Source: Bacillota bacterium
Lineage (GTDB): Bacteria; Eremiobacterota; SpSt-956; JAKJGF01
Assembly (NCBI GenBank): GCA_029555925.1
Contig: JAKPQU010000545.1
Location: forward strand, 1-13,442
Length of the DNA: 13,442 nucleotides
Direction: 5' to 3'
Below, piece after piece: positions 1 through 12,243 of the stretch. The notes under the pieces are model-generated. The model had not been told where the DNA came from and did not search any database. It worked only from the letters and a program-made list of their open reading frames with translations. A program made the position numbers and the translations under genes. The number at the start of each line of letters is the position of its first letter. Positions within the stretch are counted from its first letter, which is position 1.

Positions 1-131
1 AGTTTCATAACTATCCATAAATAATGACCTCGTAATGCGTGACGCGTAATGCGTGATGCGCAGGGATTAAACCCGTCACGCGTCACGCGTTACGCGTCAC
101 GACGACTTAAATTCTAATAAGTTATGAAATA
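1..131. repeat. Palindromic heptamer-repeat element with terminal inverted repeats
   Basis: Two arms of tandem 7-bp units face each other. The left arm (31-60) reads CGTAATG, CGTGACG, CGTAATG, CGTGATG, CG. The right arm (74-101) reads CGTCACG, CGTCACG, CGTTACG, CGTCACG. They are imperfect reverse complements around a small GGGATTAAACCC-type loop (63-74). Outside them lies a perfect 10-bp inverted pair, TTTCATAACT at 3-12 and AGTTATGAAA at 120-129, so the whole block could fold as one long hairpin. There is no coding capacity. The shape resembles a MITE or REP-like element, but the left edge abuts the window boundary, so target-site duplications cannot be judged. Confidence 0.75.
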
Positions 132-189
132 CACTATACATCACCTGGCAGGTAAGATAGTAAATTAACATAATTTCGCCTTCTTCCCG

Positions 190-218
190 TATACAGAAAT
201 AAAGCTTTTTGTTATAAT
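190..218 (+). promoter_or_regulatory. Predicted sigma70-type promoter for the zinc-ribbon/nucleoside kinase genes
   Basis: A perfect TATAAT lies at 213-218, with TATACA (4 of 6 matches to TTGACA) at 190-195 and a 17-bp spacer. Transcription would start near 225, about 75 nt before the ATG at 300. It is the best promoter match upstream of the first plus-strand gene. The call rests on consensus only. Confidence 0.5.
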
Positions 219-235
219 ATATTACAGATAAGAGA

Positions 236-273
236 GCAGGGGAGACAGAATATAGAAAAATTCTGTCTCCTGC
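236..273 (+). promoter_or_regulatory. 5' leader stem-loop
   Basis: The arms around 236-251 and 260-273 are near-perfect reverse complements (GCAGG-GAGACAGAAT against ATTCTGTCTCCTGC). The stem is about 14 bp with a GG bulge and a short A-rich loop. No U-tract follows, so it is not a standard intrinsic terminator. It would start about 10 nt after the predicted transcription start and end 26 nt before the ATG at 300. It could stabilise the mRNA or bind a regulator. The structure is visible; the function is inferred. Confidence 0.45.
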
Positions 274-299
274 AATATCTGGAAAGAAGCTGAAATAAT

Positions 300-515
300 A
301 TGTTTTTTATTATCTGGGGCAGTAAGTGGAAATATGAAAGAAAACAGGGAGGTATGATGGTAAATAAAACCTGTCCTGCATGCCTGAGAGAGGGAGTTTT
401 CTTTGAGGTAATACCGAAAAAATATTTTACATTATACTGGATTCCGTTATTTTCTACGGAACAAAAATCGTCTCTTCTTGAGTGTCCTAATTGTCATGAA
501 AAATTTTATATTTAG
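300..515 (+). CDS. Small zinc-ribbon protein (zinc_ribbon_15-like)
   Basis: A 71-residue protein with two cysteine pairs, CPAC (C25, C28) and CPNC (C62, C65), able to bind one zinc. Between them lies a hydrophobic segment, YFTLYWIPLF (42-51). The N-terminal MFFIIWG, the central Y/WFTLfxIPlf motif and the second CPxC match the small zinc-ribbon family I know as zinc_ribbon_15. A stronger-looking ribosome site (AGGGAGG, 346-352) precedes in-frame ATGs at 354 and 357. The longer start at 300 is preferred because its N-terminus is the family's conserved one and GGAAAGAAG lies at suitable spacing. The next gene begins 15 nt downstream, so co-transcription is likely. The biological role is unknown. 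Confidence 0.8.
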   Translation: MFFIIWGSKWKYERKQGGMMVNKTCPACLREGVFFEVIPKKYFTLYWIPLFSTEQKSSLLECPNCHEKFYI

Positions 516-530
516 AAAGGAACTGGTTCT

Positions 531-2192
531 ATGGAGGAAACTTATAAGATTACCCTCTCTGACGATAGAATAATTGAAGTGAAAAAAAATACAACCCTTC
601 TGGATATAGCAAAACAATCTTTCCCGTGTCCGAGCAGACAATTTCTTGGAGCTCTTGTGGATAACAGCATAAGAGATCTCTGGGAAATGCCTGATAAGGA
701 TTGTAATGTCAGTTTTGTAGATATTACCCATCCCGATGGATCAAAGATTTATGTGAGAGGTTTATCTATGGTTCTGGCAAAAGCCAATCATGAACTGTTT
801 CCTGACAGGCATCTGAAAATAGTCCACTCTCTGTCTAAAGGACTTCACTGCAGATGGGATAGTAGAATACCGATGAAAAGCTCTGATCTTGCAGCACTTA
901 CGGCAAAGATGAATGAAATCATTAAAAAAGATATCCCTTTTACGGGAAAAGTCATAAAGAAAGAAGAAGCTTCGGAAATTTTTGAAAAAATGAATAAAAT
1001 GGATAAGGTGGCTCTTATCAAATTTCGTAAAAAAAATTACATAAGACTCTATTTCTGTGATGATTATCCCGATTACTTCTTCGGACGCCTTCCTCCCTGC
1101 ACGGGGGTAGTGGATAATTTTGAATTGATACTCTGTCCTCCCGGATTGATTCTTCGTTATCCAAATCATTACAGCCCCGATAAAATACCGGTTTTTGAAC
1201 CGCAGTTCCAGCATGCCAGTATTTATAAAGAATACAGGCGGTGGGGGGAAATTCTGGAAGTCTTTGATGTGTCGTCTCTGAATTCCATCATTATGAAGGG
1301 AGAAATCAATGATCTTATCCTTATAGCGGAAGCACTCCATGAAAAAAAGATTGCAGCTATTGCGGATCAGATAAAAAATAACAGAGACAGGATAAAGGTA
1401 ATTCTTATAGCAGGGCCTTCTTCTTCGGGCAAAACTACCTTTGCCCAGAGATTGATGGTTCAGCTCAAGGTTAACGGCCTTAAACCGGTTGCCATTTCTC
1501 TTGATGATTATTATCTTGATAATGATAAAACTCCGAAAGATGAACAGGGAAAACCTGATCTTGACCATATAAATGCCATAGATTTACACCTTTTTAATGA
1601 TCATCTTGAAAGACTCCTTGCAGGAGAAAAGGTGTTGAGACCCAGATTTGATTTTAAAAAGGGGCAGCGCAGTGCCGATACTAAAGAAATGAACGTGCCT
1701 CCGAATAGCATACTTATAGTGGAGGGAATTCATGGCTTAAATCCTCTTATGAGCGAATCTATTCACCCTGATAATAAATATAAAATATATGTCAGCCCTC
1801 TCACACAGCTCAATCTGGATAATCATAACAGAATTCCCACTACGGACAACAGAATAATAAGACGTATTGTAAGAGACAGTCAGTTCAGAAATTACAGTGC
1901 TTTTCAGACAATACACAACTGGCCTATGGTAAGAAGGGGAGAAGAGCGTTTTATATTTCCTTTCCAGGAAGAAGCCCATATTATGTTTAATTCTGTTCTC
2001 ATATATGAACTGGGTGTGCTTAAAGCATTTGTAGAACCCCTTCTTCTGGAAATTCCCAAATCTCTTCCCGAATATGCGGAAGCAAAGAGAATTTTGAGTT
2101 TTACAGGAAATTTTTTACCTATAGGAACGGACATGATCCCGGCAAATTCTATTTTAAGAGAATTTATAGGCGCTACATGTTTTTCCCATTGA
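531..2192 (+). CDS. TGS-domain nucleoside (uridine) kinase
   Basis: A 553-residue multidomain kinase. Residues 1 to about 62 look like a TGS domain. Residues about 70-230 resemble the editing-type region that follows TGS in threonyl-tRNA synthetases (note FFGRLPPCTGVVDNFEL). The C-terminal half is a phosphoribulokinase/uridine kinase P-loop domain with Walker A GPSSSGKTT (295-303, lysine K301), SLDDYY (323-328, substrate-binding region) and VEGIHG (397-402). This architecture is a known family annotated as nucleoside or uridine kinase in Clostridia, Thermotogae and others. The expected reaction is ATP-dependent phosphorylation of uridine or another nucleoside to the 5'-monophosphate in the cytoplasm. 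The TGS/editing part is presumably not used for tRNA charging. AAAGGA sits upstream of the ATG. Substrate specificity cannot be read from the sequence. Confidence 0.88.
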   Translation: MEETYKITLSDDRIIEVKKNTTLLDIAKQSFPCPSRQFLGALVDNSIRDLWEMPDKDCNVSFVDITHPDGSKIYVRGLSMVLAKANHELFPDRHLKIVHSLSKGLHCRWDSRIPMKSSDLAALTAKMNEIIKKDIPFTGKVIKKEEASEIFEKMNKMDKVALIKFRKKNYIRLYFCDDYPDYFFGRLPPCTGVVDNFELILCPPGLILRYPNHYSPDKIPVFEPQFQHASIYKEYRRWGEILEVFDVSSLNSIIMKGEINDLILIAEALHEKKIAAIADQIKNNRDRIKVILIAGPSSSGKTTFAQRLMVQLKVNGLKPVAISLDDYYLDNDKTPKDEQGKPDLDHINAIDLHLFNDHLERLLAGEKVLRPRFDFKKGQRSADTKEMNVPPNSILIVEGIHGLNPLMSESIHPDNKYKIYVSPLTQLNLDNHNRIPTTDNRIIRRIVRDSQFRNYSAFQTIHNWPMVRRGEERFIFPFQEEAHIMFNSVLIYELGVLKAFVEPLLLEIPKSLPEYAEAKRILSFTGNFLPIGTDMIPANSILREFIGATCFSH

Positions 2193-2202
2193 CCGGCATT
2201 AT

Positions 2203-2237
2203 CAGTAAACAGTGAGCATTTATCAGTGACCAATGAT
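2203..2237 (+). repeat. Short heptamer array, CAGTGAN type
   Basis: Five consecutive 7-bp units lie just after the kinase stop codon: CAGTAAA, CAGTGAG, CATTTAT, CAGTGAC, CAATGAT (2203-2209, 2210-2216, 2217-2223, 2224-2230, 2231-2237). The third unit is degenerate. They share the GTRA core and 7-bp period of the other repeats in the window. The array lies in the gap before cutA. Confidence 0.55.
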
Positions 2238-2274
2238 TGGCGGCGATGACTTAAAATATAGGGGGAATAAAATT

Positions 2275-2613
2275 ATGACAGATTTTATAGTAACATATGT
2301 AACAGTTTCATCTATGGAAGAAGCAAAGAAAATATCTTATTCTCTTGTGGAAAATAAACTTGCTGCCTGTGCAAATATTGTTCCTTCCATAACTTCTGTT
2401 TATACATGGCAGGAAAAAATCTGTGAAGATCAGGAATGTTTACTTATTATAAAAACAAAGAAAGAGCTTTTCCCGGCTCTTCAGGAGAAAGTCAAATCCC
2501 TTCACAGTTATACTGTGCCGGAGATAATAGCTTTACCGATACTTGAAGGTTCTGAGAGTTATCTTGACTGGATCAGGAATGAAACAGTAGATTATGAGAA
2601 TCGTGAAGAGTGA
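2275..2613 (+). CDS. cutA: CutA-like divalent-cation tolerance protein
   Basis: A 112-residue protein with the CutA1 family signature: a beta strand near the N-terminus (FIVTYVT), KLAACANI (29-36), YTWQ (43-46), CLLIIKT (55-61) and HSYTVPEIIALPI (77-89), then YLDWI. CutA forms very stable cytoplasmic trimers with a PII-like fold. It is linked genetically to copper tolerance in E. coli, but its molecular role is unsettled. The reading frame extends upstream to an ATG at 2233. The ATG at 2275 is chosen because the conserved first strand begins there, a G-rich site (GGGGG, 2261-2265) precedes it, and the extra 14 residues would run into the heptamer array. Confidence 0.92.
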   Translation: MTDFIVTYVTVSSMEEAKKISYSLVENKLAACANIVPSITSVYTWQEKICEDQECLLIIKTKKELFPALQEKVKSLHSYTVPEIIALPILEGSESYLDWIRNETVDYENREE

Positions 2614-2671
2614 GGTGTGAAGAGAGGATAGTTCTCATACTTCGTTTTGAACACCCGGTCATGGCTGTTAA

Positions 2672-2737
2672 AGTGAAAAGTGTAAATGCAAAACAGATTT
2701 TACTTAATTTTCATTTTTTACTACTCACTTTTTACTA
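2672..2737. repeat. Palindromic AT-rich heptamer repeat, AGTGAAA type
   Basis: The left arm has AGTGAAA (2672-2678), AGTGTAA (2679-2685) and ATGCAAA (2686-2692). The right arm (about 2711-2737) reads on the opposite strand as AGTAAAA/AGTGAGT/AGTAAAA-like units. The two arms converge on a short AT-rich centre, giving a hairpin with a 7-bp period. It occupies the gap between cutA and the acetyltransferase gene and ends about 10 nt before that gene's ribosome site. Confidence 0.6.
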
Positions 2738-2762
2738 AATATGAGAGAGGGAGATGAAAAAA

Positions 2763-3299
2763 ATGAGAGAGAATACATGTGTAATCAGAGGAAATACTCT
2801 GGAACTCAGAGAAAGAGTTAAAGAAGACCTGGTAAGGGAATTATTGTGGAAAAAAGATAAAGAAGTCTGTTATCTTGAAGGACTTCTTCATGAAGGCTAC
2901 AAAATTCCTGACTATGATATAACGGAATGGGACACCATTTCTCATACGGATGAATTTAACAGAGACAAACTTGTTCTGTCAATTTATACTCAGGAAAATC
3001 ATATAGGTGCAACAGGTTTTTTCCCAGACTCCCAGGATATAAGTTCGGGAGAAGTGGGCATAATAATCGGTTCTCATGACTGCCGGGGAAAGGGATATGG
3101 CACTGAAGCACTGAAACTTTTTATAAATTATCTATTTGAAGCCAGAGGAGTAAAAAGACTCTACGGAGTAGTTTATAAATTCAATGAAAGAGCCTATAAA
3201 ACTGCTTTAAAGGCAGGCTTTACGGAAATAAAGGTCATAAGTAAATATCATCCCGAATACGGCTTTTACGAACAATCTTTCCTGGAATTGAAATTATGA
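2763..3299 (+). CDS. GNAT-family N-acetyltransferase
   Basis: A 178-residue protein of the RimJ/RimL-like GNAT class. The acetyl-CoA pyrophosphate loop is visible as RGKGYG (108-113) after the strand GEVGIIIG. The later NERAYKTALKAGF (141-153) is the typical motif B, which helps place the CoA tail and ends in the 'GF' turn. It should move an acetyl group from acetyl-CoA to an amine on a small molecule or protein N-terminus; the substrate cannot be told. Two in-frame ATGs (2754, 2763) exist. The second is preferred because AGGGAG (2748-2753) abuts the first but lies 9 nt before the second. It is the last plus-strand gene before a convergent junction with murG. Confidence 0.82.
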   Translation: MRENTCVIRGNTLELRERVKEDLVRELLWKKDKEVCYLEGLLHEGYKIPDYDITEWDTISHTDEFNRDKLVLSIYTQENHIGATGFFPDSQDISSGEVGIIIGSHDCRGKGYGTEALKLFINYLFEARGVKRLYGVVYKFNERAYKTALKAGFTEIKVISKYHPEYGFYEQSFLELKL

Positions 3300-3346
3300 A
3301 ATGTGCTAAGTACCGTTACAGGTAAAATGTTATCCGTAAAAAGCTT

Positions 3347-3480
3347 CTGCCTGGCGGGCTCTGGAGAAGAAAAATTAGTTTTTTATATAGAATTAAAAAT
3401 TAAATAAGGGCTAATTTATTGTCTGTAAAACAAATTAAATAAGGGCAAATTATTTTTCTTCGTAAGAACCTGTCAGGCAG
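3347..3480. repeat. 134-bp inverted-repeat element (MITE-like)
   Basis: CTGCCTG at 3347-3353 is matched by CAGGCAG at 3474-3480. Further in, GAAGAAAAAT (3366-3375) is matched perfectly by ATTTTTCTTC (3452-3461). The arms thus resemble each other as reverse complements over about 30 bp with small differences, around an AT-rich centre. A related arm occurs at 13345-13374 near the right edge of the window. There is no coding capacity. It sits in the convergent gap between the acetyltransferase gene and murG. Confidence 0.6.
3397..3446. repeat. 15-bp direct repeat inside the inverted-repeat element
   Basis: AAATTAAATAAGGGC occurs identically at 3397-3411 and 3432-3446, 35 bp apart start to start, with AT-rich sequence between. 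Both copies lie in the centre of the inverted-repeat element. It may be an internal duplication or a paired protein-binding site. Confidence 0.55.
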
Positions 3481-3509
3481 ACAAATTATTAGAACGATTG
3501 ATATCCTCG

Positions 3510-3537
3510 CATCACGTGTTACGCGTTATGCGTTACG
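3510..3537 (-). repeat. GC-rich heptamer array overlapping the murG stop
   Basis: Four contiguous 7-bp units read on the plus strand as CATCACG, TGTTACG, CGTTATG, CGTTACG (3510-3516, 3517-3523, 3524-3530, 3531-3537). On the minus strand they are CGTAACG, CATAACG, CGTAACA, CGTGATG. The murG stop codon (3526-3528) and its last three sense codons (3529-3537) fall inside the array. Confidence 0.7.
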
Positions 3538-4647
3538 AGCAACCGATAAAATGGTTTTTGCTATTAGTTCTGCTGCATCAGGCTTTGCCAGAGAAGCAGC
3601 TTTGTCGGACATGTTTTTCAGTTTTTCTCTGTCTGTAATCAGACCTTTAATGGTATTTAAAAGGAGGTCTTCTGTCATAAGGGACTGTTCTATTATAATA
3701 CCGGCACCGTGCTGCTCAATGACTCTTGCATTTTTCATCTGATGATTATTGGCTGCTTTGGGAAGTGGTATGATGAGGGACGGCTTTTTTAATACCATGA
3801 GTTCACTCAGAGTATTGGCGCCACCTCTTGTAAGAACAAGATCGGCACTCTGTAAAGCCAGGGGCATATCATCTGTAATAAAGGAAAATAATTTGTAATT
3901 TTTTTTCAGATTTTCCGGTAATGTCTCCTGCATCTCGCAGAGAGAAGGATAATCCAGCTCTCCTGATTGATGAAGAACCTGAACAGAGGGAAGAAGAGCA
4001 GGTAATATACCTTTTATGGCATTATTTATTGCTCTTGCACCCTGGCTTCCTCCTGTGACGAAAAGAACCGGTATGGCAGGGGCCAATCCGAAATGTTTTA
4101 CTCCTTCACTTTTTTCAGTAAAAGCGATTTTCATAACAGCCGGGTTTATGGGACTTCCCGTATACTTCCCTTTTTTTTGAACCTCTGCCGGATAATTGTC
4201 TTCCGGAAAACCCAGTGATATGCCTTTCAGAAATCTCAGGAGAATTTTATTGGAAAGACCTATTACCGTATCGGATTCATGGGCTATGACAGGAATGCCG
4301 AGAATTCCGCCTGCCAGCCCTACCGGCACTGTTACATATCCGCCTTTGGTAAAGATTACATCAGGTCTGAAGCTTCTTATAATATTCAATGATTGAAAAA
4401 AACCGGCGCATACTTTAAACATATCGGTGAAATTTTCCAGAGAAAAATATCTTCTCAATTTCCCGCAATGAATGCCTCTGAATGTTATACCATTATCCGG
4501 TACTATATTGGCTTCCATGCCTGTTACGGAACCTACATAGAGAATCTCCGTATCTGCAAGTTCCTTTAATTTATTTATTACAGACAGAGTAGGTATGATA
4601 TGTCCTCCAGTTCCTCCGCCTGTAGCAATGATTTTCAATGACTTCAT
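3526..4647 (-). CDS. murG: UDP-GlcNAc:lipid I N-acetylglucosaminyltransferase MurG
   Basis: A 373-residue GT28-family enzyme. MurG transfers GlcNAc from UDP-GlcNAc to lipid I on the inner face of the cytoplasmic membrane, making lipid II for peptidoglycan. Visible motifs are the N-terminal glycine loop GGGTGGH (10-16), the acceptor-side HESD (123-126), GGSQGARA (199-206) at the domain hinge, and the donor-site RGGANTLSE (274-282) with NHQ (301-303). Length is normal for the family. The gene starts 3 nt after the LolA-like stop codon, so it is probably translated from the same mRNA; no strong ribosome site is seen. It is separated from the usual division/cell-wall cluster. Its last residues (RNA) and stop are encoded by a heptamer repeat. 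Confidence 0.95.
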   Translation of the reverse strand: MKSLKIIATGGGTGGHIIPTLSVINKLKELADTEILYVGSVTGMEANIVPDNGITFRGIHCGKLRRYFSLENFTDMFKVCAGFFQSLNIIRSFRPDVIFTKGGYVTVPVGLAGGILGIPVIAHESDTVIGLSNKILLRFLKGISLGFPEDNYPAEVQKKGKYTGSPINPAVMKIAFTEKSEGVKHFGLAPAIPVLFVTGGSQGARAINNAIKGILPALLPSVQVLHQSGELDYPSLCEMQETLPENLKKNYKLFSFITDDMPLALQSADLVLTRGGANTLSELMVLKKPSLIIPLPKAANNHQMKNARVIEQHGAGIIIEQSLMTEDLLLNTIKGLITDREKLKNMSDKAASLAKPDAAELIAKTILSVARNA

Positions 4648-4650
4648 AAG

Positions 4651-5298
4651 CTAAAATCTTAACCCTGTATTTGTTGTAAAATTATAAAACTGAACAATCA
4701 TTCTTGCACGCCATTCCGGAAAGGTAATACTTATATCGTCATAGGAAGGCAGCATATAACCGTTAATCTTTTCAAATTTCTGTTCTGCCCTTACATAACC
4801 TCCCGATGCATATTTGAGTATAACTTTATTTGATGTGTAATTTACTGCATGAATCCAGAATCTTGCTTCCTGAAGATTATCTTTTTTATCCAGGGCAGTG
4901 CTTTTTATAACATAATATGGTTCTCCCTGTATAAATTCCGTCATTGCAATAGAGTGGGAAAACTTTTTTCTGTCAATGAGTTCCTGTATAGATTTATCTG
5001 TTATAATTTCTTTATGTTCTCCGAGAAAACTTGGCAGTCCTTCCAGGACAAATTTAACCCTGTCAGGGAGAATACATGATAGTTTCCCCTTTACATTGAG
5101 ATGGATGTCTCTTGAACTGGCATCTACATTGAATTCACTCGTGTAATCACGAAGCCCTGAAAGGGAACCGTCTACTCTGTTCCATAATTCATCACCGGTC
5201 ATGTTAGAATCGAATTTGAAATCCTTACAGAATACTGGAGAAGTAACTATAAAAAGAACAAGCAGAATAACAGAAGAGTATAGAAAAAATCTGGTCAT
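4651..5298 (-). CDS. Exported LolA/LolB-like protein
   Basis: A 215-residue protein with a signal peptide: MTRFFL, then a long hydrophobic stretch to about residue 22, with likely cleavage near 24. The mature part begins with a helix (about 35-50) and then alternating beta strands. One run (DIHLNVKGKLSCILPDRVKFVLEG) fits the 'secreted unstructured/greasy substrate' half-barrel of outer-membrane lipoprotein sorting proteins. That fold binds acyl chains in LolA, LolB and RseB. The cysteine near the cleavage site lacks a proper lipobox (-1 is Phe), so a lipoprotein is unlikely. AAAGGGG precedes the ATG. It lies 96 nt downstream of the TPR gene in an AT-rich gap and 3 nt upstream of murG. Assignment is by pattern, so family level only. 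Confidence 0.6.
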   Translation of the reverse strand: MTRFFLYSSVILLVLFIVTSPVFCKDFKFDSNMTGDELWNRVDGSLSGLRDYTSEFNVDASSRDIHLNVKGKLSCILPDRVKFVLEGLPSFLGEHKEIITDKSIQELIDRKKFSHSIAMTEFIQGEPYYVIKSTALDKKDNLQEARFWIHAVNYTSNKVILKYASGGYVRAEQKFEKINGYMLPSYDDISITFPEWRARMIVQFYNFTTNTGLRF

Positions 5299-5394
5299 TA
5301 CATAAACACCCCTTTAATATAATAAGTGATTTTATTATCAAATATTACAATTTCTATGCCTAATTTTAATTATGAGAAAAATTTTTATAAAAAA

Positions 5395-6564
5395 TTATTC
5401 CTGATTTTCTATATCTTCTATAGATATATCTATTCTTCCTTTATCTCTATAGGTTATTCCCTTGGCAAGATAACTGTCAGGATCTGTTTTATTACCAGAC
5501 ATTGATTCGAAATCTTTCAGGGTATTTTCTGTGTCTTTCATTAAATAGCTTATACATCCGAGTCCGTAAAGGTATTTTTCCGAGGAAGGACTTAGTTTTA
5601 CTGCCTGAGAAAACTCTTTTAAAGCACTGTCGTAGTTTCCGAGTTTAAAATATATACAGGCAAGATTATAATGATATTTCCCGTTTGACGGAGATAGTTC
5701 TACTGATTTGATAAATTGTTCCCGTGCTTTATCAAAATCACCCTTTAAATAATAAATACATCCGATATTATAATACGATGAAGGTTCCTTCGGCAGAAGT
5801 TTTGCTATTTTTTCAAAATGAACAAGGGCGTTATTAAATTCTTTTCTTAAATAATATATGGAGGCAAGTCTTCTGTGAACTTTTACTCTGTAAGGATCTA
5901 TACCTATGGCTTTACTGTAATAATTGGCTGCTCTGGAGAAATTTCCGTATTTATAGAAAACATCTGCTACAGAAAGACATGTTTCCAGATTGTCCGGTTC
6001 CATAAGGAACGATTTATCCAGATAGTCCATTCCTTTGTTTATTTCATTTTTTTCCAGATAGAACAGGCCGAGGCGGCAGAGAAGTTTCGGAGAAACCTGG
6101 GGCAATATTTTTATAGCTTCTTCAAGTTCCGAAATTGATTCCGCCATGTTCCCCTGGCTGTGGTAAATATCAGAAAGATTGTAATAGGGAGTCACATCGG
6201 CAGGAGAAAGTTTTTTTATCTTTTTCCAGATATTTATTGATTTTCCTTTTTCTCCCGTTATTAAATAAAGATCTGCCAGCTTGTAAAGGTATAATAATCT
6301 GGATGGCTGGAGAGATACTGCTTTCTCAAGTACAGCAATAGATTTCCCTGTTTTACCCTGTTCCTTTAAAATCTGTGATTTGTAAAAAAGGGCCTGATGA
6401 TTATTCGGTTCCTCTGAAAGAACTTTATCGAATGCCTCCAGGGCTTTAGTTGCATTGCCGGAATAAACATAATTGAGACCTGTATAAAAATAATCTGTTT
6501 TTGCCTGTATGCATACGGGCAACAGGATTATCAGAAAAAAAATACAAATATATGATAGTTTCAT
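5395..6564 (-). CDS. Secreted tetratricopeptide-repeat protein
   Basis: A 389-residue protein with a signal peptide (hydrophobic 5-20, probable cleavage after IQA at 21). Ten 34-residue TPR units follow back to back from about residue 24, plus a partial eleventh at the C-terminus. Typical signatures recur: W/L-G-Y-A-x-F-P positions such as YNIGCIYYLKGDFDKAREQF and YNLACIYFKLGNYDSALKEF. TPR arrays are protein-interaction scaffolds, so a periplasmic or surface assembly role is likely. CPV at 16-18 is not a valid lipobox. A good ribosome site (AAAGGAG, 6572-6578 on the complement) lies 7 nt before the ATG, in the 20-nt gap after the upstream gene. No enzymatic domain is visible. Confidence 0.85.
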   Translation of the reverse strand: MKLSYICIFFLIILLPVCIQAKTDYFYTGLNYVYSGNATKALEAFDKVLSEEPNNHQALFYKSQILKEQGKTGKSIAVLEKAVSLQPSRLLYLYKLADLYLITGEKGKSINIWKKIKKLSPADVTPYYNLSDIYHSQGNMAESISELEEAIKILPQVSPKLLCRLGLFYLEKNEINKGMDYLDKSFLMEPDNLETCLSVADVFYKYGNFSRAANYYSKAIGIDPYRVKVHRRLASIYYLRKEFNNALVHFEKIAKLLPKEPSSYYNIGCIYYLKGDFDKAREQFIKSVELSPSNGKYHYNLACIYFKLGNYDSALKEFSQAVKLSPSSEKYLYGLGCISYLMKDTENTLKDFESMSGNKTDPDSYLAKGITYRDKGRIDISIEDIENQE

Positions 6565-6584
6565 TTAATAACTCCTTTCACTCT

Positions 6585-8429
6585 TCACTGGCTTTTCAAC
6601 ATAAGTCTTACCGGATAATGAGAGCCTCCCTGCGGAATAGTATTCACATGAACTATTCTTTCTTCTCCACCTTTAAGAAACAGAGTAGCTAAAGATACAT
6701 GTTCCGAAGATTTGACTATAGGAGTTTCTATCATGCGACCGTCTATAAGAAACGTTCCCTGAGCTATACCTCCCTGGGAGGTAAAACTCATTTCCACTTC
6801 TTTTACAGAGGAAGAGGGATTTTTTATTTTAATGGTCATATCATATAAAACTCCGTAGTTCCCGTAAAGAGGGCCTCCTTCGTCCATGGAGTCAAGAAAA
6901 GGACTCTTACCTATGTATATAGATTTTTCCGATTCTCCTACATTGTATGTTTCATTTATATTCACAAAAGGTTCTGGATAAACACCTCTACAATGGGTGG
7001 AGTCCGAGTCTCTTGGAAGCATTTCTTTCGTAATCTGGCCTGAAGGTTTTGACTCGGCTCTTATTGTAAGTTCCAGAAATGACGATCCGGGAGACTGGAT
7101 GTGGAAAAGACCTGTAAGTATTTCCTTGGGGGCCATTTTCTGCATGTATATAATAACTCTCTCTTCAGGTGCTATGGTAAGAAACTGTCCCGCATTATAA
7201 AGACAGTTTCTCATAAACCTGGATGTTGCTACATGGCCTACAAAGGCCTCCTGAGTGTTCGGTCCTCCTGTACCGCTTATAAACCATATTTTACATGCTG
7301 TTTTATAAGGGTTGAACACTTCTATTATAAGATATTTCTCTTTTTCGGAGCCATTCTGATGATAATATAAAAGCCTTGCAGGTGAGCCGCCGGACAGGAT
7401 ATGGGAAAACATTATACCGTCTTTTACAATTTTTTCCGGGCTGTCACTTACAAAAAGTAAAACAGGTTTTGTGAATTTCTCTTCCTGATGCCTGACTTTT
7501 AGCGGTAAAAATCGTTCTATACTGACAATACCGTCTCCTTCTATCCTGACCGGAACGAGAAGATTTAATTCTTTACCCGAAGAAAGGGGAGCAGGATTAA
7601 TATTAAACGGATCTATAGATAATTTTGCTCCTGAAGTCAGAGAAATAGAACGGTTCAATTCCTTTATGACCGCATCTTTTATAACATCAGGCTGACATGG
7701 TGTACCACTCACGGAAATAATATTCGGCGCAGAAAATTCGGCACACTTTTCCCTGACTGAAACAGTTATCTTAAGTTTAACTCCTTCTTTTTCGAATTCT
7801 ACAGTGCTGTCTCCTTTATTGATAGCCCTGACAACCAGCCTGTCTTTGATAGCTGTTTCTTTTATCTCTATAATATTTTGCGTGTTTATTTTCCATGTGA
7901 TTTTACCTGTTGCGTTACCCAGGATTTTTATATCACTTTTTTCGCCGGGTACAAGAAGAATCTGTGAAGGAAATACCTTAAGTGTCGGAGGAGAGGAAAA
8001 AGCTTTCTGCAGATTTCCTGCCCATCTGGCTGCCAGTTCTTCAGCACCTGAATTATTCAATTTACCCTGCAAATCAGTAATAGTAATAAGTTTTTCCTCA
8101 CCCCAGTAGATGCTTGCACCGGCAGGTTTTTCTGTTACCTTTCCATTCTCCTCTACCTTTTTTATTTCTTTTTTGTAATATATTTTGTCTGTGGAAATTC
8201 CCTTTGAATATAGATAGTTTAATTTATCTGCAATAGCCCGGGCTCTTACCTCCGGGTCATAGGAACTTTCCTGATGAATGGTCATTACAGATTGTTCTCT
8301 TATATATATGTCTTCCGCAATATGAGCTTCATCCGTTCTGGGTCTTACTGACGCCAGTTCCTGGCCGTATATGAAAGATGGAAGACACATCAGTAATAGA
8401 AAAAAATAGACTGCAAAACTGAATTTCAC
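6585..8429 (-). CDS. Large secreted Ig-like conserved hypothetical protein
   Basis: A 614-residue exported protein with a signal peptide ending about IYG (22). Residues about 30-125 form an alpha/beta module ending in EELAARWAGNLQKAF. I recognise its pattern (strand IYWGEEKLITIT, then a helix with LA..WA..L) from other secreted bacterial proteins. Residues about 128-210 resemble a BIG_2 Ig-like domain (PSQILLVPGEKSDIKI ... AINKGDSTVEF). The last ~105 residues (LYGNYGVLYDMTIKIKNPSS ... IPQGGSHYPVRLML) look like a beta-sandwich seen in uncharacterised proteins of Armatimonadota-type bacteria. The start is GTG (8427-8429). Its ribosome site AAAGGG lies in the final codons of the HEAT-receiver gene, whose stop is 4 nt upstream, so the two are probably translationally coupled. 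No catalytic motif is seen; function is unknown. Confidence 0.75.
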   Translation of the reverse strand: MKFSFAVYFFLLLMCLPSFIYGQELASVRPRTDEAHIAEDIYIREQSVMTIHQESSYDPEVRARAIADKLNYLYSKGISTDKIYYKKEIKKVEENGKVTEKPAGASIYWGEEKLITITDLQGKLNNSGAEELAARWAGNLQKAFSSPPTLKVFPSQILLVPGEKSDIKILGNATGKITWKINTQNIIEIKETAIKDRLVVRAINKGDSTVEFEKEGVKLKITVSVREKCAEFSAPNIISVSGTPCQPDVIKDAVIKELNRSISLTSGAKLSIDPFNINPAPLSSGKELNLLVPVRIEGDGIVSIERFLPLKVRHQEEKFTKPVLLFVSDSPEKIVKDGIMFSHILSGGSPARLLYYHQNGSEKEKYLIIEVFNPYKTACKIWFISGTGGPNTQEAFVGHVATSRFMRNCLYNAGQFLTIAPEERVIIYMQKMAPKEILTGLFHIQSPGSSFLELTIRAESKPSGQITKEMLPRDSDSTHCRGVYPEPFVNINETYNVGESEKSIYIGKSPFLDSMDEGGPLYGNYGVLYDMTIKIKNPSSSVKEVEMSFTSQGGIAQGTFLIDGRMIETPIVKSSEHVSLATLFLKGGEERIVHVNTIPQGGSHYPVRLMLKSQ

Positions 8430-8433
8430 CGGA

Positions 8434-9843
8434 TCACCCTTTAAAGACTGAGAGAATTTCCCTGATGGTTTTTGTCAGTTCAACCGGATTAAAGGGTTTT
8501 ATCATATAACAGGCAACTCCCAGTTCTTCACCTTTCTGTACATCTTTTTCCTGAGATTTAGCTGTTACTATAATTACAGGTATAGATTTTGTTTCAGGAT
8601 TTAATTTTAATTTTTCTGCCGTTTCCCAGCCATCCATTACAGGCATCATAATATCAAGCAGTATAAGGTCAGGTCTGCTCTCTTCAACCTTTTTGAGAGC
8701 TTCTGCGCCGTTATATGCCACACCTATTTCATATCCTTCCGAACTCAGGACACTGGAAATAAATTTTGATATAAATTTATCATCATCTACGATAAGTATT
8801 TTTTTACGACCTTCCGAACCTTTACGGGATCTTATCATGCCTATTGCTTCGGAAAGATAGGCTCTCACCCAGTTATCTTTTTCTTTTTCCAGAGCCTTAT
8901 TCAGTGCTTCTTCTATTTCTGGCCCTCCCATTATGCCGAGTGATTTTGCCGCATTGCTTCTCACTGTTTCATGTTCATCGTCCAGTAATTTTACCAGCGG
9001 ATCCACTGCTTTTTCATCACAGAGTTTACCAAGGGAATCTGCCGCATTACTCCTGGTATTCCAGCTCTCATCAAAGAGGGCATTGATAAGAGGTTCAACT
9101 GCTCTTTTATCACCCAGTTTACCCAGTGCTTCTGCAGCATTTCTTCTTACATCCCAGTCACTGTCAGAGAGGGCTTTTATTAAAGGCTCTACAATTATTT
9201 TATCTTCGAATTTTCCCAGAGCTTCACAGGCACTGCTTCTTACACTGCTTACTTTGTCTTCTAGCAAAATTTTAATAAGCGGTTCTATTGCCGAATTATC
9301 TCTGAGTTTCCCGAGAGATTCCGCTACACTTGTTCTTACTGTCCAGTCTTCATTAGCAAGACTTTTTATAAGGAACGGCACAGCACTCTTCGCACCGATT
9401 TTCCCGAGAGCAGACGCAGCCCTTCCTGCTACCCATCCGTCTTTATCTTCAAGAGCTTTAAGAAGTGGTTCCGTATGGCCGAGCATACCGAGAGACTGGG
9501 CTACATCGGCTCTTATTTCCCAGTCATCAAGTAGTTTTAATAGAGAGGATACTGCACTTTTATCACCGAGAATACCTAGGGCTTCTACAGCATTCCTTCT
9601 TACTTTCCAGCTTATATCTTCAAGGGCTTTTAACAGTGGTTTTACAACTACTTTTCCTCCTATTTCTCCAAGAGACTTTACTGCTTTTTCTCTTACGTCT
9701 TCATTCTCATCATTGCATAATCCCACTAAAGGATCAATGGCTTTCGGATCTTTAAGTTTGCCCATCATCCAGGCAACTTTCATACGGGTTTCTATATTTC
9801 CGGTTTTTAATTGCTCCATTAATTGATCGATTCTCTCTTCCAT
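8434..9843 (-). CDS. HEAT-repeat/response-regulator receiver fusion protein
   Basis: A 469-residue cytoplasmic protein. Residues 1 to about 340 are ten to eleven PBS-lyase-type HEAT repeats of about 31 residues (pattern VR..AA.SLGKLGD..AV.PLI.AL.D), with one shortened unit around residues 120-135. Residues 347-469 are a complete CheY-like receiver: acidic cluster DDD (353-355), phospho-acceptor D397 in LLDIMMP, T427 and K449 in MIKPF. All key residues are present, so phosphorylation by a histidine kinase is expected. No DNA-binding or enzymatic output domain follows. The HEAT solenoid is therefore the likely output or partner-binding surface. No histidine kinase lies in the window. AAAGGA about 10 nt before the ATG is the ribosome site. 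It is the first gene of a five-gene minus-strand run. Confidence 0.92.
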   Translation of the reverse strand: MEERIDQLMEQLKTGNIETRMKVAWMMGKLKDPKAIDPLVGLCNDENEDVREKAVKSLGEIGGKVVVKPLLKALEDISWKVRRNAVEALGILGDKSAVSSLLKLLDDWEIRADVAQSLGMLGHTEPLLKALEDKDGWVAGRAASALGKIGAKSAVPFLIKSLANEDWTVRTSVAESLGKLRDNSAIEPLIKILLEDKVSSVRSSACEALGKFEDKIIVEPLIKALSDSDWDVRRNAAEALGKLGDKRAVEPLINALFDESWNTRSNAADSLGKLCDEKAVDPLVKLLDDEHETVRSNAAKSLGIMGGPEIEEALNKALEKEKDNWVRAYLSEAIGMIRSRKGSEGRKKILIVDDDKFISKFISSVLSSEGYEIGVAYNGAEALKKVEESRPDLILLDIMMPVMDGWETAEKLKLNPETKSIPVIIVTAKSQEKDVQKGEELGVACYMIKPFNPVELTKTIREILSVFKG

Positions 9844-9946
9844 TCCGGTTCAATCCTTTCTTTGCAAAACTATTAATCTCCCTTATCCTGAACACTTCGA
9901 CTTTAATTTACATTTCCCTGTTTTCTTTATAAATTTATATGTGAAC

Positions 9947-10006
9947 CGTGACGGATGACGGGTGATGCGTAATGCGTGATACTATAATCATAACGCGTCA
10001 CGCGTA
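9947..10006. repeat. GC-rich palindromic heptamer repeat upstream of the envelope operon
   Basis: Left units CGTGACG, GATGACG, GGTGATG, CGTAATG, CGTGATA (9947-9981) are followed by an inverted arm ACGCGTCACGCGT (9993-10005). The arrangement is like the element at the window's left edge, with a short AT-rich loop. It lies about 100 bp upstream of the HEAT-receiver gene, where its promoter should be. Confidence 0.65.
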
Positions 10007-10044
10007 AGTTCTACGACTCACTATTCACTTTTTACCTTTTTTCT

Positions 10045-10107
10045 ATTCAGTTTTCACTTTTCACTATTTACTTTTCACTTTTTACTATTAACTATTCGCT
10101 TTTCACT
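10045..10107 (-). repeat. Nine-unit AT-rich heptamer array, AGTGAAA type
   Basis: Nine uninterrupted 7-bp units fill exactly 63 bp. On the minus strand from 10107 they read AGTGAAA, AGCGAAT, AGTTAAT, AGTAAAA, AGTGAAA, AGTAAAT, AGTGAAA, AGTGAAA, ACTGAAT. Looser units continue to about 10016. The first units encode the last residues and stop codon of the deacetylase gene (stop at 10092-10094). The array directly adjoins the GC-rich heptamer element at 9947-10006. Confidence 0.75.
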
Positions 10108-11600
10108 GCTGTAGAGATTTTTATCATATACTTCTTCGGTTCATAAGATACAGTAACCCCGTTCATAGCTTTCACTGAAGAAAGAGCAATATAAGGTCCG
10201 TCACATGAACCGGTTACCTTGAGATCTTTCGTCCACAGGTTTAAGATCTTTGAAATATCCTCAATTGATACTTTTATTTCATTATTTTCACCATCTCTGT
10301 ATGATTTTAAAGGAACAAAGTCGTCATTTATAATAAATTTTATTAATTTAATATTTATGTCATTATCTTTTTTAAGTTCTATTTCAACAAGACCTGTTTC
10401 ATAAAGAGAAGAAAGGGGTAAATAAGTTGTTCCACAGAAGGTTTTCCCTTTTATTTGTTTATTACCTGTATAAATTTCCATGTCTGATTTCCATTTGAAT
10501 TGTATACCTGTTATATTCTCTACATCTCTTAATATAAAGTACAGTTCTCCATGATAGAAAAAAGCTTTTTTTCTCAGAGATATACCGTTAAGGCATATGG
10601 AAGGATAAAAAAAGTCTGTTTTTTTCTCTCTTATTCGTAGGGAAAATTCTCTAATGAGTATTTCCGTAGAGATAAAAGCTTTACCGTCAATGATCTGGCA
10701 TTTGTATTTATTGCCGCAGAAGGTCAATTCTTTTTTTGAATCATCCCAGTCATAGTCCACCCCCAGGTGATTGAAGAAAAATTTTACAGAAATATACTGT
10801 TTATTTTTCATCACTTTACCATTTTCTCCCAGGGGCTTATTGTTAAAATACATACTGCTTATATCATATTTATCAATAACAGTATATTTCTTTACAGGTG
10901 AATTTCTTAAAGGTTTTTCTATGGCCAGATTGTATTTTTGATACAGTAAGTCTTCTACTGTTATAAATTTGAACCCTTTATACTGCATATGATCGATGAA
11001 TTCCTGAAGTATGTGCCCTGCTGTGGGATAAATGTCATGTAACAGTATTACTCCTCCTCTGTAACATTGTCTGTATAAATTGTCCAGCACATAGTAATCA
11101 CCGTACCCCATCCAGTCCTGGCTGTCTATCTGCCAGAGTACAGGTATTTGCCCGTAATGAGAGAGAAGAGTATATATGCTGTAATCATATTCTCCGTAAG
11201 GTGGACGAATCTGGGCCAGTTTGTAATGATAACCGAGTGCTCTGTCTACCAGTTCCTGAGTCATCTGAAGTTCTTCCAGAATATTATAGGCACTTCTGGT
11301 TTTCATATTTATGTGACTGTAAGTATGGTTACCGAGTGTATGACCTTCTTCTGCTATTCTTCTTATAATATCGGGATAGAGAGAAGCATTTATGCCTGTT
11401 ACAAAAAAGGTTCCTTTAATATTATTTTTTCTGAGAATATCAAGAATTACAGGAGTGTAATAAGGGTCAGGGCCATCGTCAAATGTAAGAGCCAGCCTTC
11501 CCGGGAAATTATCATTATATGAAATTTCATGACAGTTCCCTCTATAAGATATTATGAGAAAAAGAAATAATAATAAATATATTTTTTGTGATAAAGACAT
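10092..11600 (-). CDS. Secreted polysaccharide deacetylase with stalk modules
   Basis: A 502-residue protein of carbohydrate esterase family 4. All five NodB motifs are present: TFDDGPD (39-45, catalytic base D41 and metal D42), H92-TYS-H96 (metal ligands), RPPYGEYD (132-139), DSQDW (159-163) and LLHD (186-189, catalytic H188). It should remove N-acetyl groups from peptidoglycan or another surface glycan outside the cytoplasmic membrane. An N-terminal hydrophobic segment (7-18) is a signal peptide or anchor. Residues about 250-500 look like repeated copper-amine-oxidase N-terminal 'stalk' modules (e.g. NKQYISVKFFFNHLGVDYDWD), likely wall-binding. The frame runs upstream to an ATG at 11714, but that start would overlap the preceding remnant by 91 nt and add 38 polar residues before the signal sequence, so the ATG at 11598-11600 is chosen; its ribosome site is weak. 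The C-terminal VKSE and stop come from a heptamer repeat. Confidence 0.88.
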   Translation of the reverse strand: MSLSQKIYLLLFLFLIISYRGNCHEISYNDNFPGRLALTFDDGPDPYYTPVILDILRKNNIKGTFFVTGINASLYPDIIRRIAEEGHTLGNHTYSHINMKTRSAYNILEELQMTQELVDRALGYHYKLAQIRPPYGEYDYSIYTLLSHYGQIPVLWQIDSQDWMGYGDYYVLDNLYRQCYRGGVILLHDIYPTAGHILQEFIDHMQYKGFKFITVEDLLYQKYNLAIEKPLRNSPVKKYTVIDKYDISSMYFNNKPLGENGKVMKNKQYISVKFFFNHLGVDYDWDDSKKELTFCGNKYKCQIIDGKAFISTEILIREFSLRIREKKTDFFYPSICLNGISLRKKAFFYHGELYFILRDVENITGIQFKWKSDMEIYTGNKQIKGKTFCGTTYLPLSSLYETGLVEIELKKDNDINIKLIKFIINDDFVPLKSYRDGENNEIKVSIEDISKILNLWTKDLKVTGSCDGPYIALSSVKAMNGVTVSYEPKKYMIKISTAVKSE

Positions 11601-11623
11601 TTTCTTAAACCAGCTTCCGCTTT

Positions 11624-12001
11624 TTAGTTTTCTGAAGGGTTCTTTGTTGATCTGGATGTTTCTTCTCTTTTTTGATCTACCGTCGCAATAAGGGTGTTCC
11701 TCTGTTTGTCCCATAAATTTTTTATTTCATCGGAGAAACCTGCTATTGCCCACGGTGCTTTATTACATATGCCGGCTATTATTTCATTGATTAGTATTTC
11801 TTTTCCCTGTGTATAAATGGCTTCCCCTGTCCTTGTCATAATACACAGTTCAAAGGTCTGTCCTGTTGTAATAACACCGTAAGCTTTATGGGTTGTGATT
11901 TTTTTATATATCCACATAATATCTGACAGTTTTACTATGTCAAGGGTAAAGAATCTTTCAATAAGCAGCCACGAAGGCGTAATTTTTACAGAACCGGATT
12001 T
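11624..12001 (-). pseudogene. 5'-truncated remnant of a conserved hypothetical gene (DUF6709-like)
   Basis: The first ATG in this frame is at 11915-11917, giving 97 residues with no ribosome site. The frame stays open and protein-like for 28 more codons upstream (SVKITPSWLLIERFF, then DIVKLSDI) to a TAA at 12002-12004, with no plausible start codon in that stretch. The composition and motifs (TPSWLL, IMWIYKKITTHK, APWAIAGFSDEIKNLW, IATVDQKR) recall the C-terminal half of proteins I associate with DUF6709, which normally have an N-terminal membrane part. That part is missing. A neighbouring frame is open from about 12051 to 11986, so a frameshift may also be involved. A heptamer patch lies about 40 bp upstream at 12043-12056. 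It ends 23 nt before the deacetylase start. If it is still expressed from 11917, it would be a 97-residue protein of unknown role. Confidence 0.6.
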
Positions 12002-12042
12002 TTACAGGTATATACTTCACAACAGATTACAAATAATCCTCC

Positions 12043-12056
12043 CGTTACGCGTCACA
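12043..12056 (-). repeat. Two-unit GC-rich heptamer patch
   Basis: CGTTACG (12043-12049) and CGTCACA (12050-12056), the same units as in the larger elements. It lies upstream of the truncated gene remnant and is followed by AGGATTAT (12059-12066), which recurs after the patch at 12212-12232. The non-coding stretch 12002-12243 holds these two patches, a promoter candidate and otherwise AT-rich sequence in which I see nothing more. Confidence 0.5.
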
Positions 12057-12142
12057 CAAGGATTATAATTTTTCCAACAATTTGCCGGAGTTGTTTTTCT
12101 TGTAGTCCTTAATTTCTAATATGAAACTGACTGTCATTAATA

Positions 12143-12151
12143 TGGTATAAT
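12143..12151 (+). promoter_or_regulatory. Extended -10 promoter candidate for the Ser/Thr kinase
   Basis: TGGTATAAT at 12143-12151 combines a perfect TATAAT (12146-12151) with the TG dinucleotide of an extended -10 element. No good -35 box is seen at 16-18 bp, which extended -10 promoters tolerate. The leader would be about 85 nt and would include the heptamer patch at 12212-12232. Consensus match only. Confidence 0.4.
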
Positions 12152-12211
12152 TATAACACAAAGACCGAAAAAAAGAAAAAGGGTTTGATGTAATGACTTT
12201 ATATTCAGCCC

Positions 12212-12232
12212 GGTAACGTGTAATACGTGACA
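12212..12232 (+). repeat. Three-unit GC-rich heptamer patch in the kinase leader
   Basis: GGTAACG, TGTAATA, CGTGACA occupy 12212-12232 in register. The kinase ribosome site AGGA (12232-12235) directly abuts the last unit. This patch is inverted relative to the one at 12043-12056, and both are followed by the 8-bp sequence AGGATTAT. Confidence 0.55.
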
Positions 12233-12243
12233 GGATTATGATT

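Follow-up and report, generated by a model that had tools for sequence, protein, structure and literature searches.

What are the 7-bp repeats that occupy the gaps between genes in contig JAKPQU010000545.1, a 13,442-base stretch of DNA from a Bacillota bacterium (37% GC; this whole stretch is referred to below as the window), and how are they maintained? The original prediction described them as one dispersed class of heptamers that had diversified around a GTRA core, and offered slippage, a transposase acting in trans, or a bound protein as the means of upkeep. Bacterial heptamer repeats have been noted for decades, and there is no agreement on their origin or function. On balance, the reading that we favor is that the heptamers are the inward-facing arms of dispersed, foldback-like palindromic elements, in which whole 7-bp steps in either arm likely arise via slippage or unequal recombination, and some of which are likely miniature inverted-repeat transposable elements (MITEs) moved by an IS630-type transposase in trans. 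This class of heptamer repeats thus likely represents DNA that is mobile or was so in the past.

In the nearest relative found, the arrays have a convergent order, a shared core with independent variable bases, and homogeneity within each arm, and the window agrees wherever it is able to do so. The same genome contains copies with conserved ends whose lengths differ by 7-bp steps, and a second family whose copies carry zero, few, or many heptads. Heptamer arrays are already known from cyanobacteria, Xanthomonas, Beggiatoaceae, and Geobacter, and convergent pairs from Xanthomonas. The points that go beyond the original prediction are the convergent pairing, a second core (TYAGYNN), the independence of the arms, and elements bounded by terminal inverted repeats (TIRs) with whole-heptad differences. 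A 283:0 bias in order, coexisting cores, and homologues with zero, few, or many heptads make it possible to test mobile elements, binding sites, and slippage debris against each other, and shared cores or geometry link arrays that were described separately in the four groups named above.

Abundance, Period, and Core Classes

Tandem GTRA units are in large excess in the window when compared with 300 dinucleotide shuffles: runs of two units (GTRAx2) number 26 versus a mean of 1.3, runs of three (GTRAx3) number 12 versus 0.013, and runs of four (GTRAx4) number 4 versus 0, with 5, 0, and 0 runs, respectively, for a reversed-core control. Arrays of at least two units are present in six of the eight gaps longer than 60 bp, as had been said of the larger intergenic gaps. 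The loci originally listed all carry in-register GTRA heptads, with the corrections that 2672–2737 resolves into a weak plus-strand stretch and a minus-strand arm and that only some of the units at 2203–2237 keep the core. The description of the repeats as palindromic holds for the sequence of the CGTNACG unit taken alone; on a larger scale, the palindrome results from the pairing of oppositely oriented arms.

The nearest relative found, G001, is a 5-Mb metagenome-assembled genome (MAG; “Bacillota bacterium isolate UR.bin48”) that was picked by a single contig scan, limited to close relatives, with the uridine-kinase-like protein of the window (best segment 74% identical). In G001, GTRAx4 is found at 277 + 279 sites, versus 29 + 26 for the reversed core. 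Among 148 other searched genomes of the same phylum, GTRAx4 sites number zero in 142 and 1–7 each in the remaining 6. The period was evaluated in 60 evenly spaced contig stretches of G001, six of which were wholly masked, leaving 554,570 usable bases. This sample contains 89 GTRAx3 runs, versus 18 with the reversed core and a mean of 0.8 in 10 shuffles, and exact 7-mers recur 590 times at lag 7 versus 76–232 times at lags 4, 5, 6, and 8; recurrence is higher still at lag 12 (639) and lag 24 (752). The repeats of G001 are dispersed, mostly intergenic, and genome-wide, which bears out the proposal of one class diversified around a GTRA core, in excess over shuffled sequence and with its 7-bp period present outside the window. 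The filing of G001 under Bacillota likewise agrees with the earlier remark that these repeats resemble the short tandemly repeated repetitive sequences (STRRs) of cyanobacteria in a genome that does not look cyanobacterial. A separate observation concerns another relative, G009, in which the reversed-core control gives 35 hits versus 2 for GTRAx4; this genome may bear heptads of a different core.

The array finder needs the core to be present, and the core classes were therefore judged from a core-free census of the G001 sample with Tandem Repeats Finder (TRF). The census returned 97 period-7 rows with at least 2.8 copies, followed by period 9 (25 rows) and period 6 (18 rows). When merged, the period-7 rows mark 90 places, comprising 50 GTRA, 21 TYAGYNN, 1 TCAGR, and 18 other; about 13% of random 7-mers would be expected to hold a GTRA word. 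Eighty of the 90 places lie outside crude open reading frame (ORF) calls, whereas the other periods are mostly found inside ORFs (14 of 18 for period 6, 18 of 25 for period 9, and 9 of 12 for period 12). The 7-bp period is therefore the constant, and two cores cover most of the places. The second core class, TYAGYNN, with units that include TCAGCTA, TCAGCAA, and TTAGCTA, coexists with GTRA in G001 and behaves alike. G001 contains few GC-rich units of the kind seen in the window, with only 5 sites in an exact search for CGTNACGCGTNACG. As tandem 7-nt units that are mainly intergenic and above chance, the arrays belong to the bacterial heptanucleotide repeats, or STRRs in the broad sense.

Convergent Geometry of the Arms

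Most arrays are laid out as convergent pairs, [GTRANNN]n–spacer–[NNNTYAC]m. A genome-wide search of G001 with the pattern GTGANNNGTRA-N3-33-TYACNNNTCAC gives 283 inward placements, which overlap such that several fall in one element, and the outward pattern has none. Both strands give 283 because the pattern is its own complement. The outward pattern read backwards, used as a control, gives 22 matches, which are interpreted as these inward arrays read in a different phase. Six further genomes were searched with both patterns; the inward one was found 0 times and the outward one once, in a GC-rich palindrome of G005. Neighboring GTRA arrays no more than 100 bp apart were compared in 79 stretches of G001 (the 60 evenly spaced stretches plus 19 chosen for hits; 6 wholly masked): 60 of the 81 pairs point inward, 4 outward, and 17 lie on the same strand, and TYAGY neighbors point inward in 22 of 23 pairs. 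The four outward pairs are missed by the genome-wide pattern because it is stricter and shorter-ranged. A core-free pair test based on TRF gives 30 inverted, 4 direct, and 19 unrelated pairs (n = 53). When arrays are grouped, 61 of the 96 GTRA groups in the G001 sample form an inward pair, one is same-strand, and one is outward only; the remainder are single arms, which are considered below. The window contains three inward pairs (32/73, 2603/2715, and 9941/10015), and its only outward arrangement is that of 12042–12055 (−) with 12213–12233 (+), 157 bp apart.

The three variable bases of GTRA units have an identity of 0.613 when units of the same arm are compared (250 unit pairs), 0.380 across the two arms of an element (292 unit pairs), and 0.358 between elements; the corresponding values for TYAGY are 0.545, 0.360, and 0.367. 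High identity within arms combined with low identity between them indicates that arms turn over locally and separately. The middles vary as well: GC-rich palindromes, a TACTATTACACTATC-like word, or an additional heptad class are present in some of them. With inverted arms that consist of short tandem repeats and with arm lengths and middles that vary, these elements have the architecture of a foldback transposon. GC-rich palindromes of the AGGGGCGAAC type, with 31 matches in the G001 sample (at most 1 mismatch, both strands), are also seen inside or beside some heptad pairs, for example, at L105:10731, L049:17617, and L112:4352.

Element Families with Conserved Ends

Clustering of flanks revealed a family, A, in which TATAGTNNRTTTCATAAC ends bracket a heptad pair. 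The end pattern, with at most 2 mismatches, has 62 + 80 hits in G001, versus 8 + 15 for the control. Of 36 complete copies extracted from G001, a few have almost zero heptads, and the lengths of 15 share one class modulo 7 (102, 109, 123, 130, 137, 144, and 151), where about 5 would be expected by chance. In 30 canonical copies, the left arm has 1–7 units and the right arm has 2–6 when one mismatch in the core is tolerated per unit. The heptads found at the same place differ between copies, being GTAATGC/GTAAAGC/GTGATGC, GTGAAAC, or GTGAGCA/GTGAACA. The identity of 1.0 over the first 30 nt of 20 copies is not relied on, as the copies were selected by a word within that stretch and the value is partly by construction.

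Window positions 1–138 constitute a family A copy, recognized by flank homology to the copies of G001. The window begins inside this element, and the outermost left bases are missing. A remnant of the left TIR, TTTCATAAC (3–11), and the right TIR, GTTATGAAATACACTATA (121–138), enclose a left arm of GTAATGC GTGACGC GTAATGC GTGATGC (32–59, +) and a right arm of GTGACGC GTAACGC GTGACGC GTGACGG (73–100, −). Folded as DNA, this element forms a hairpin of −35.7 kcal/mol (z = −8.2), whereas six other folded stretches of the window have z values of −0.4 to −2.2. Family A, including window 1–138, is MITE-like in that it is short, has TIRs, and occurs as many dispersed copies.

The second family, B, has TYAGY heptads. 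Sixteen copies, chosen and aligned in two sets, show a graded heptad content, with none in L072 and L147, several copies that have one or two units in each arm, and others that have more; one copy contains an insert of ∼21 nt (three units) relative to five others. A search for empty sites by joining flanks returned mainly self matches across short arrays; only the copies of family B and L088, a family A copy poor in heptads, were taken as informative.

One family A copy is nested in a heptad array, and retention of a single TA is required to restore the 14-bp register of that array. To judge from this one copy, the register would be as expected from a TA target duplication, which is the habit of IS630/Tc1-mariner elements. 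The first 26 nt of a hybrid family A copy, L045, are the end of a decayed DDE_3 insertion sequence. G001 has seven DDE_3 matches, three with stops and the other four partial. Separately, a convergent GTRA pair with three units per arm (L169:1370–1426, G001:C397) was observed ∼75 bp upstream of a partial DDE_3 match. In systems of repetitive extragenic palindromic (REP) sequences and their hairpin-forming doublets (REPINs), a Y1 transposase gene, that of the REP-associated tyrosine transposase (RAYT), is linked to the repeats. This system was considered and rejected, as none of the five intact Y1_Tnp loci (∼2–3.4 kb) in G001 has a GTRA array of at least two units; a sixth, truncated Y1_Tnp match has one two-unit GTRA array.

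A Proposed Mechanism and Points Against It

In the reading that we favor, the convergent order would descend from a hairpin stem, and each arm would gain and lose 7-bp units on its own, with slippage during replication or unequal recombination as the likely route. Some elements likely spread as MITEs via an IS630-type transposase in trans. Arrays with no recognizable frame would be what is left of elements that lost their framework to decay but whose arms kept renewing themselves.

Several observations weigh against this reading. Most GTRA groups have no recognizable framework, and flank homology was detected for 27 of 102 (and for 20 of 39 TYAGY groups; groups of the window and L001 are included in both). 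Single arms account for 33 of the 96 GTRA groups in the G001 sample, and 21 of the 36 family A lengths fall in other classes modulo 7, as subfamilies and decayed copies. An intact transposase with family A ends was not found in G001, nor was a good family A end at its DDE_3 loci among matches with at most 4 substitutions. The 52 convergent GTRA elements outside family A display neither target duplication nor TIR, the pair of features that mark a MITE, and they lack the 8–10-bp target duplication of foldback elements such as Tetris; the mean longest word shared by their 12-nt flanks equals that of re-paired flanks. As these 52 elements show no target duplication or terminal repeat, it is by inference that movement is extended to elements outside family A. 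The arms also pair with each other just slightly better than re-paired arms do. Complementarity of the variable bases is 0.516, versus 0.455 on re-pairing (sd 0.027); the GTRA duplex energy is −15.6, versus −14.6, with 6 of 200 re-pairings equally stable; and for TYAGY, 56 of 200 re-pairings are as stable as the real arms. Selection for a hairpin was accordingly rejected. Finally, slippage leaves the 7-bp period and the fixed core amid three varying bases unexplained, and the simplest idea left for both is a factor that reads the core.

Alternative Explanations

A protein that reads the core is also at the heart of the alternative in which the arrays are nucleoid, partition, or regulatory sites with one heptad per dimer, as for the omega (ParB) protein of pSM19035 on WATCACW, and in which convergent order is operator symmetry. 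Omega heptads also measure 7 bp, are arranged in tandem, and can be bound in either direct or inverted orientation (PMC9499535; here and below, papers cited by PMC number are represented by parts of their text, and statements about them apply to those parts), the complement WGTGATW includes GTGA, and a fixed core with free flanks fits a core-reading protein. However, the base that follows GTRA is A (0.43), G (0.32), or T (0.22), such that the omega consensus is not kept; the sole Omega_Repress match in G001 is below the cutoff (26.0 versus 33.3 bits), with other protein families not searched; and a regulator leaves the 7-bp length steps of the MITE copies unexplained. Omega parS heptads were rejected, with WATCACW not kept and a single subthreshold ribbon-helix-helix match, and protein sites in general appear unlikely. 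Of the mechanisms originally offered, unit gain and loss is supported, some elements were likely moved by a transposase in trans, and for a bound protein the test covered the omega family only, which was not borne out. Plain slippage during replication at ordinary tandem repeats, with heptamers favored by the polymerase footprint and no element involved, agrees with homogeneity within arms and with reports, cited together with the footprint idea, that heptanucleotides are the most abundant 5–11-nt repeat class in most genomes (PMC4679880, PMC4692102). It is improbable, being already strained by polarity: it predicts neither the 283:0 convergent order, nor one core per class, nor the absence of GTRAx4 from 142 of the 148 other searched genomes of the phylum. 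Strict polarity, independent arms, and variable middles would all be predicted if a templated, telomerase-like enzyme wrote heptads on both 3′ ends of a break and the ends were then joined. RVT_1 has 0 matches in G001, a MAG that is perhaps incomplete, and is present in 7 of 28 genomes searched, and MITE copies inherit heptads that change by unit steps; reverse-transcriptase templating was rejected on the first of these counts, and templating of any kind seems hardly credible. As a side observation, a weak Omega_Repress-like ribbon-helix-helix protein is encoded at G001:C240:3857–3979 (L188), before a small ORF that by eye resembles a toxin-type partner.

The arrays could also be transcription terminators, RNA hairpins, or all-frame stop cassettes for translation from either side. 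In the G001 sample, GTRA arrays contain the ends of 28 of the 568 ORFs that reach 100 amino acids, in every case in sense, and the CutA-, MurG-, and deacetylase-like genes of the window also end in such arrays. This follows from the core sequence itself, as GTRA has TGA or TAA and a 7-bp step visits all frames, so that an ORF entering a three-unit inward arm must stop; by contrast, the stops of TYAGY, read from sequence, are mostly outward. Arrays lie within 30 nt of ORF ends in 25 of 115 cases at the 5′ end and in 39 of 95 at the 3′ end, and placement beside 3′ ends (29 of 68, versus 18.4 expected at random) is a mild enrichment. T-runs adjoin 21 of 116 element sides (0.18, versus 0.09 for intergenic DNA), but 0 of the 13 terminator-like sites of the window fall in an array, and the window has no match to a known RNA family at Rfam gathering scores. 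Terminators were rejected because they rest on the weak T-run excess, and the entire group of explanations is very unlikely. The placement at gene ends is read as tolerance, not function.

Comparison with Known Heptamer Systems

Cyanobacterial STRRs, as in Calothrix/Tolypothrix and Nostoc, consist of 7-bp tandem units. The arrays described here have the same unit length and differ in host phylum and in the density and range of GTRA in G001; in the strict sense, STRRs have a cyanobacterial host, whereas G001 is filed under Bacillota. The GGGAATC/GGGGAYT heptamers of Xanthomonas and Nostoc PCC 7120, reported in a paper that also cites a Calothrix heptamer case, are similarly heterogeneous 7-bp units, dispersed and mostly intergenic (PMC4692102). 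Close convergent pairs of sites, such as those seen here, were described in 70 cases in Xcc and 75 in Xac, with array lengths that differ between Xcc and Xac and a type (single or pair) that is usually kept; in Nostoc there are just a few pairs (PMC4692102). The Xanthomonas and Nostoc core contains a G-tract read as quadruplex-forming (PMC4692102), whereas GTRANNN and TYAGYNN have no such core, their composition lacking a run of at least three G in each unit. The parts of PMC4692102 considered report no tie to TIR-bounded elements, unlike family A here.

In a sample of 395 kb from four cyanobacterial plasmids, one whole and three in part, GTAATTC and TCAGRA heptads are present. The 11 TRF pairs within 700 bp, a small number, comprise 4 inverted, 1 direct, 1 tie, and 5 unrelated; at distances up to 300 bp, the three TCAGRA pairs and the single GTRA pair all point inward. 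At L180:5778–5972, TCAGRA arms are enclosed by GTAATTC arms. An additional arrangement was noted in a Nostoc sp. MS1 plasmid (L183:17109–17790), where opposite CAATTCG heptads flank ∼600 bp with an inverted repeat, GTGACTTGAAGAAGATTTTGGACA.

In Geobacter metallireducens, the class 3 “global regulator binding sites” contain five tandem MTYCTGA heptanucleotides (complement, TCAGRAK), and the site classes are mostly paired, with classes 1 and 2 on opposite strands at a variable distance (PMC2700814). That system differs in comprising 16 sequences, in its core, and in that IHF/HU sites were suggested (PMC2700814). The TAACTGA repeats of Beggiatoaceae, cyanobacteria, and Bacteroidetes are intergenic heptamers whose complement, TCAGTTA, fits TYAGYNN, but they involve one unit, mostly in forward direct repeats upstream of start codons, with one inverted case (PMC4679880). 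The G001 arrays, in contrast, have many units, are mostly convergent, and lie nearer to 3′ than to 5′ ORF ends. Foldback transposons such as Tetris of Drosophila have inverted repeats with internal tandem repeats, rearranged copies, and no transposase found, and their structure was suggested to recur via transposase loss and TIR lengthening (PMC4079207). Tetris differs in being eukaryotic, in its 8–10-bp target duplications, and in its longer units (satellite TIR-220) (PMC4079207). Among the titles and abstract openings of the matches listed, which covered few subscription papers, there was no description of bacterial heptamer pairs as foldback elements. We offer, tentatively and with more doubt than conviction, the idea that the convergent heptamer pairs of cyanobacteria, Xanthomonas, Geobacter, and the present lineage are of one kind, namely, foldback elements whose arms are rewritten in 7-bp steps, with the core held by a trans factor that reads from the outside in and with arms that outlive the transposon frame.

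Other Arrays and Features of the Window

Beyond the family A copy, the first array of the window is a degenerate single array 3′ of the uridine-kinase-like gene (2203–2237, +), with two perfect units at 2205–2218. The second inward pair has a left arm of GTGAAGA GTGAGGT GTGAAGA (2603–2623, +), which contains the stop codon of the CutA-like gene (2275–2613), and a right arm of GTAAAAA GTGAGTA GTAAAAA (2715–2735, −). A weak array at 3322–3342 (+), with two of three units perfect, is a possible partner of GTAACGC ATAACGC GTAACAC GTGATGC at 3509–3536 (−), which contains the stop codon of the murG-like gene (3526–4647, −). The third inward pair comprises GTGAACC GTGACGG ATGACGG GTGATGC GTAATGC GTGATAC (9941–9982, +) and GTAAAAA GTGAATA GTGAGTC (10015–10035, −), and is followed by a further right arm of eight units, six of them perfect (10051–10106, −), in which the polysaccharide-deacetylase gene (10092–11714, −) has its stop codon. 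The outward arrangement is composed of a two-unit array, GTTACGCGTCAC (12042–12055, −), flanked by the short inverted words AATCCT/AGGATT, and of GTAACGT GTAATAC GTGACAG (12213–12233, +), immediately before a kinase-like gene at 12238.

A second dispersed sequence, AAGTACCGNNACAGGTAA, which adjoins some heptad elements, lies at ∼3304–3325 in the window and at ∼12616 and ∼12830 in L001; with at most 1 mismatch, it is found once in the window, twice in L001, and 20 times in the 79-stretch sample of G001. Lastly, a single ORF of the window (8434–9843) fuses HEAT repeats with a response-regulator receiver domain.

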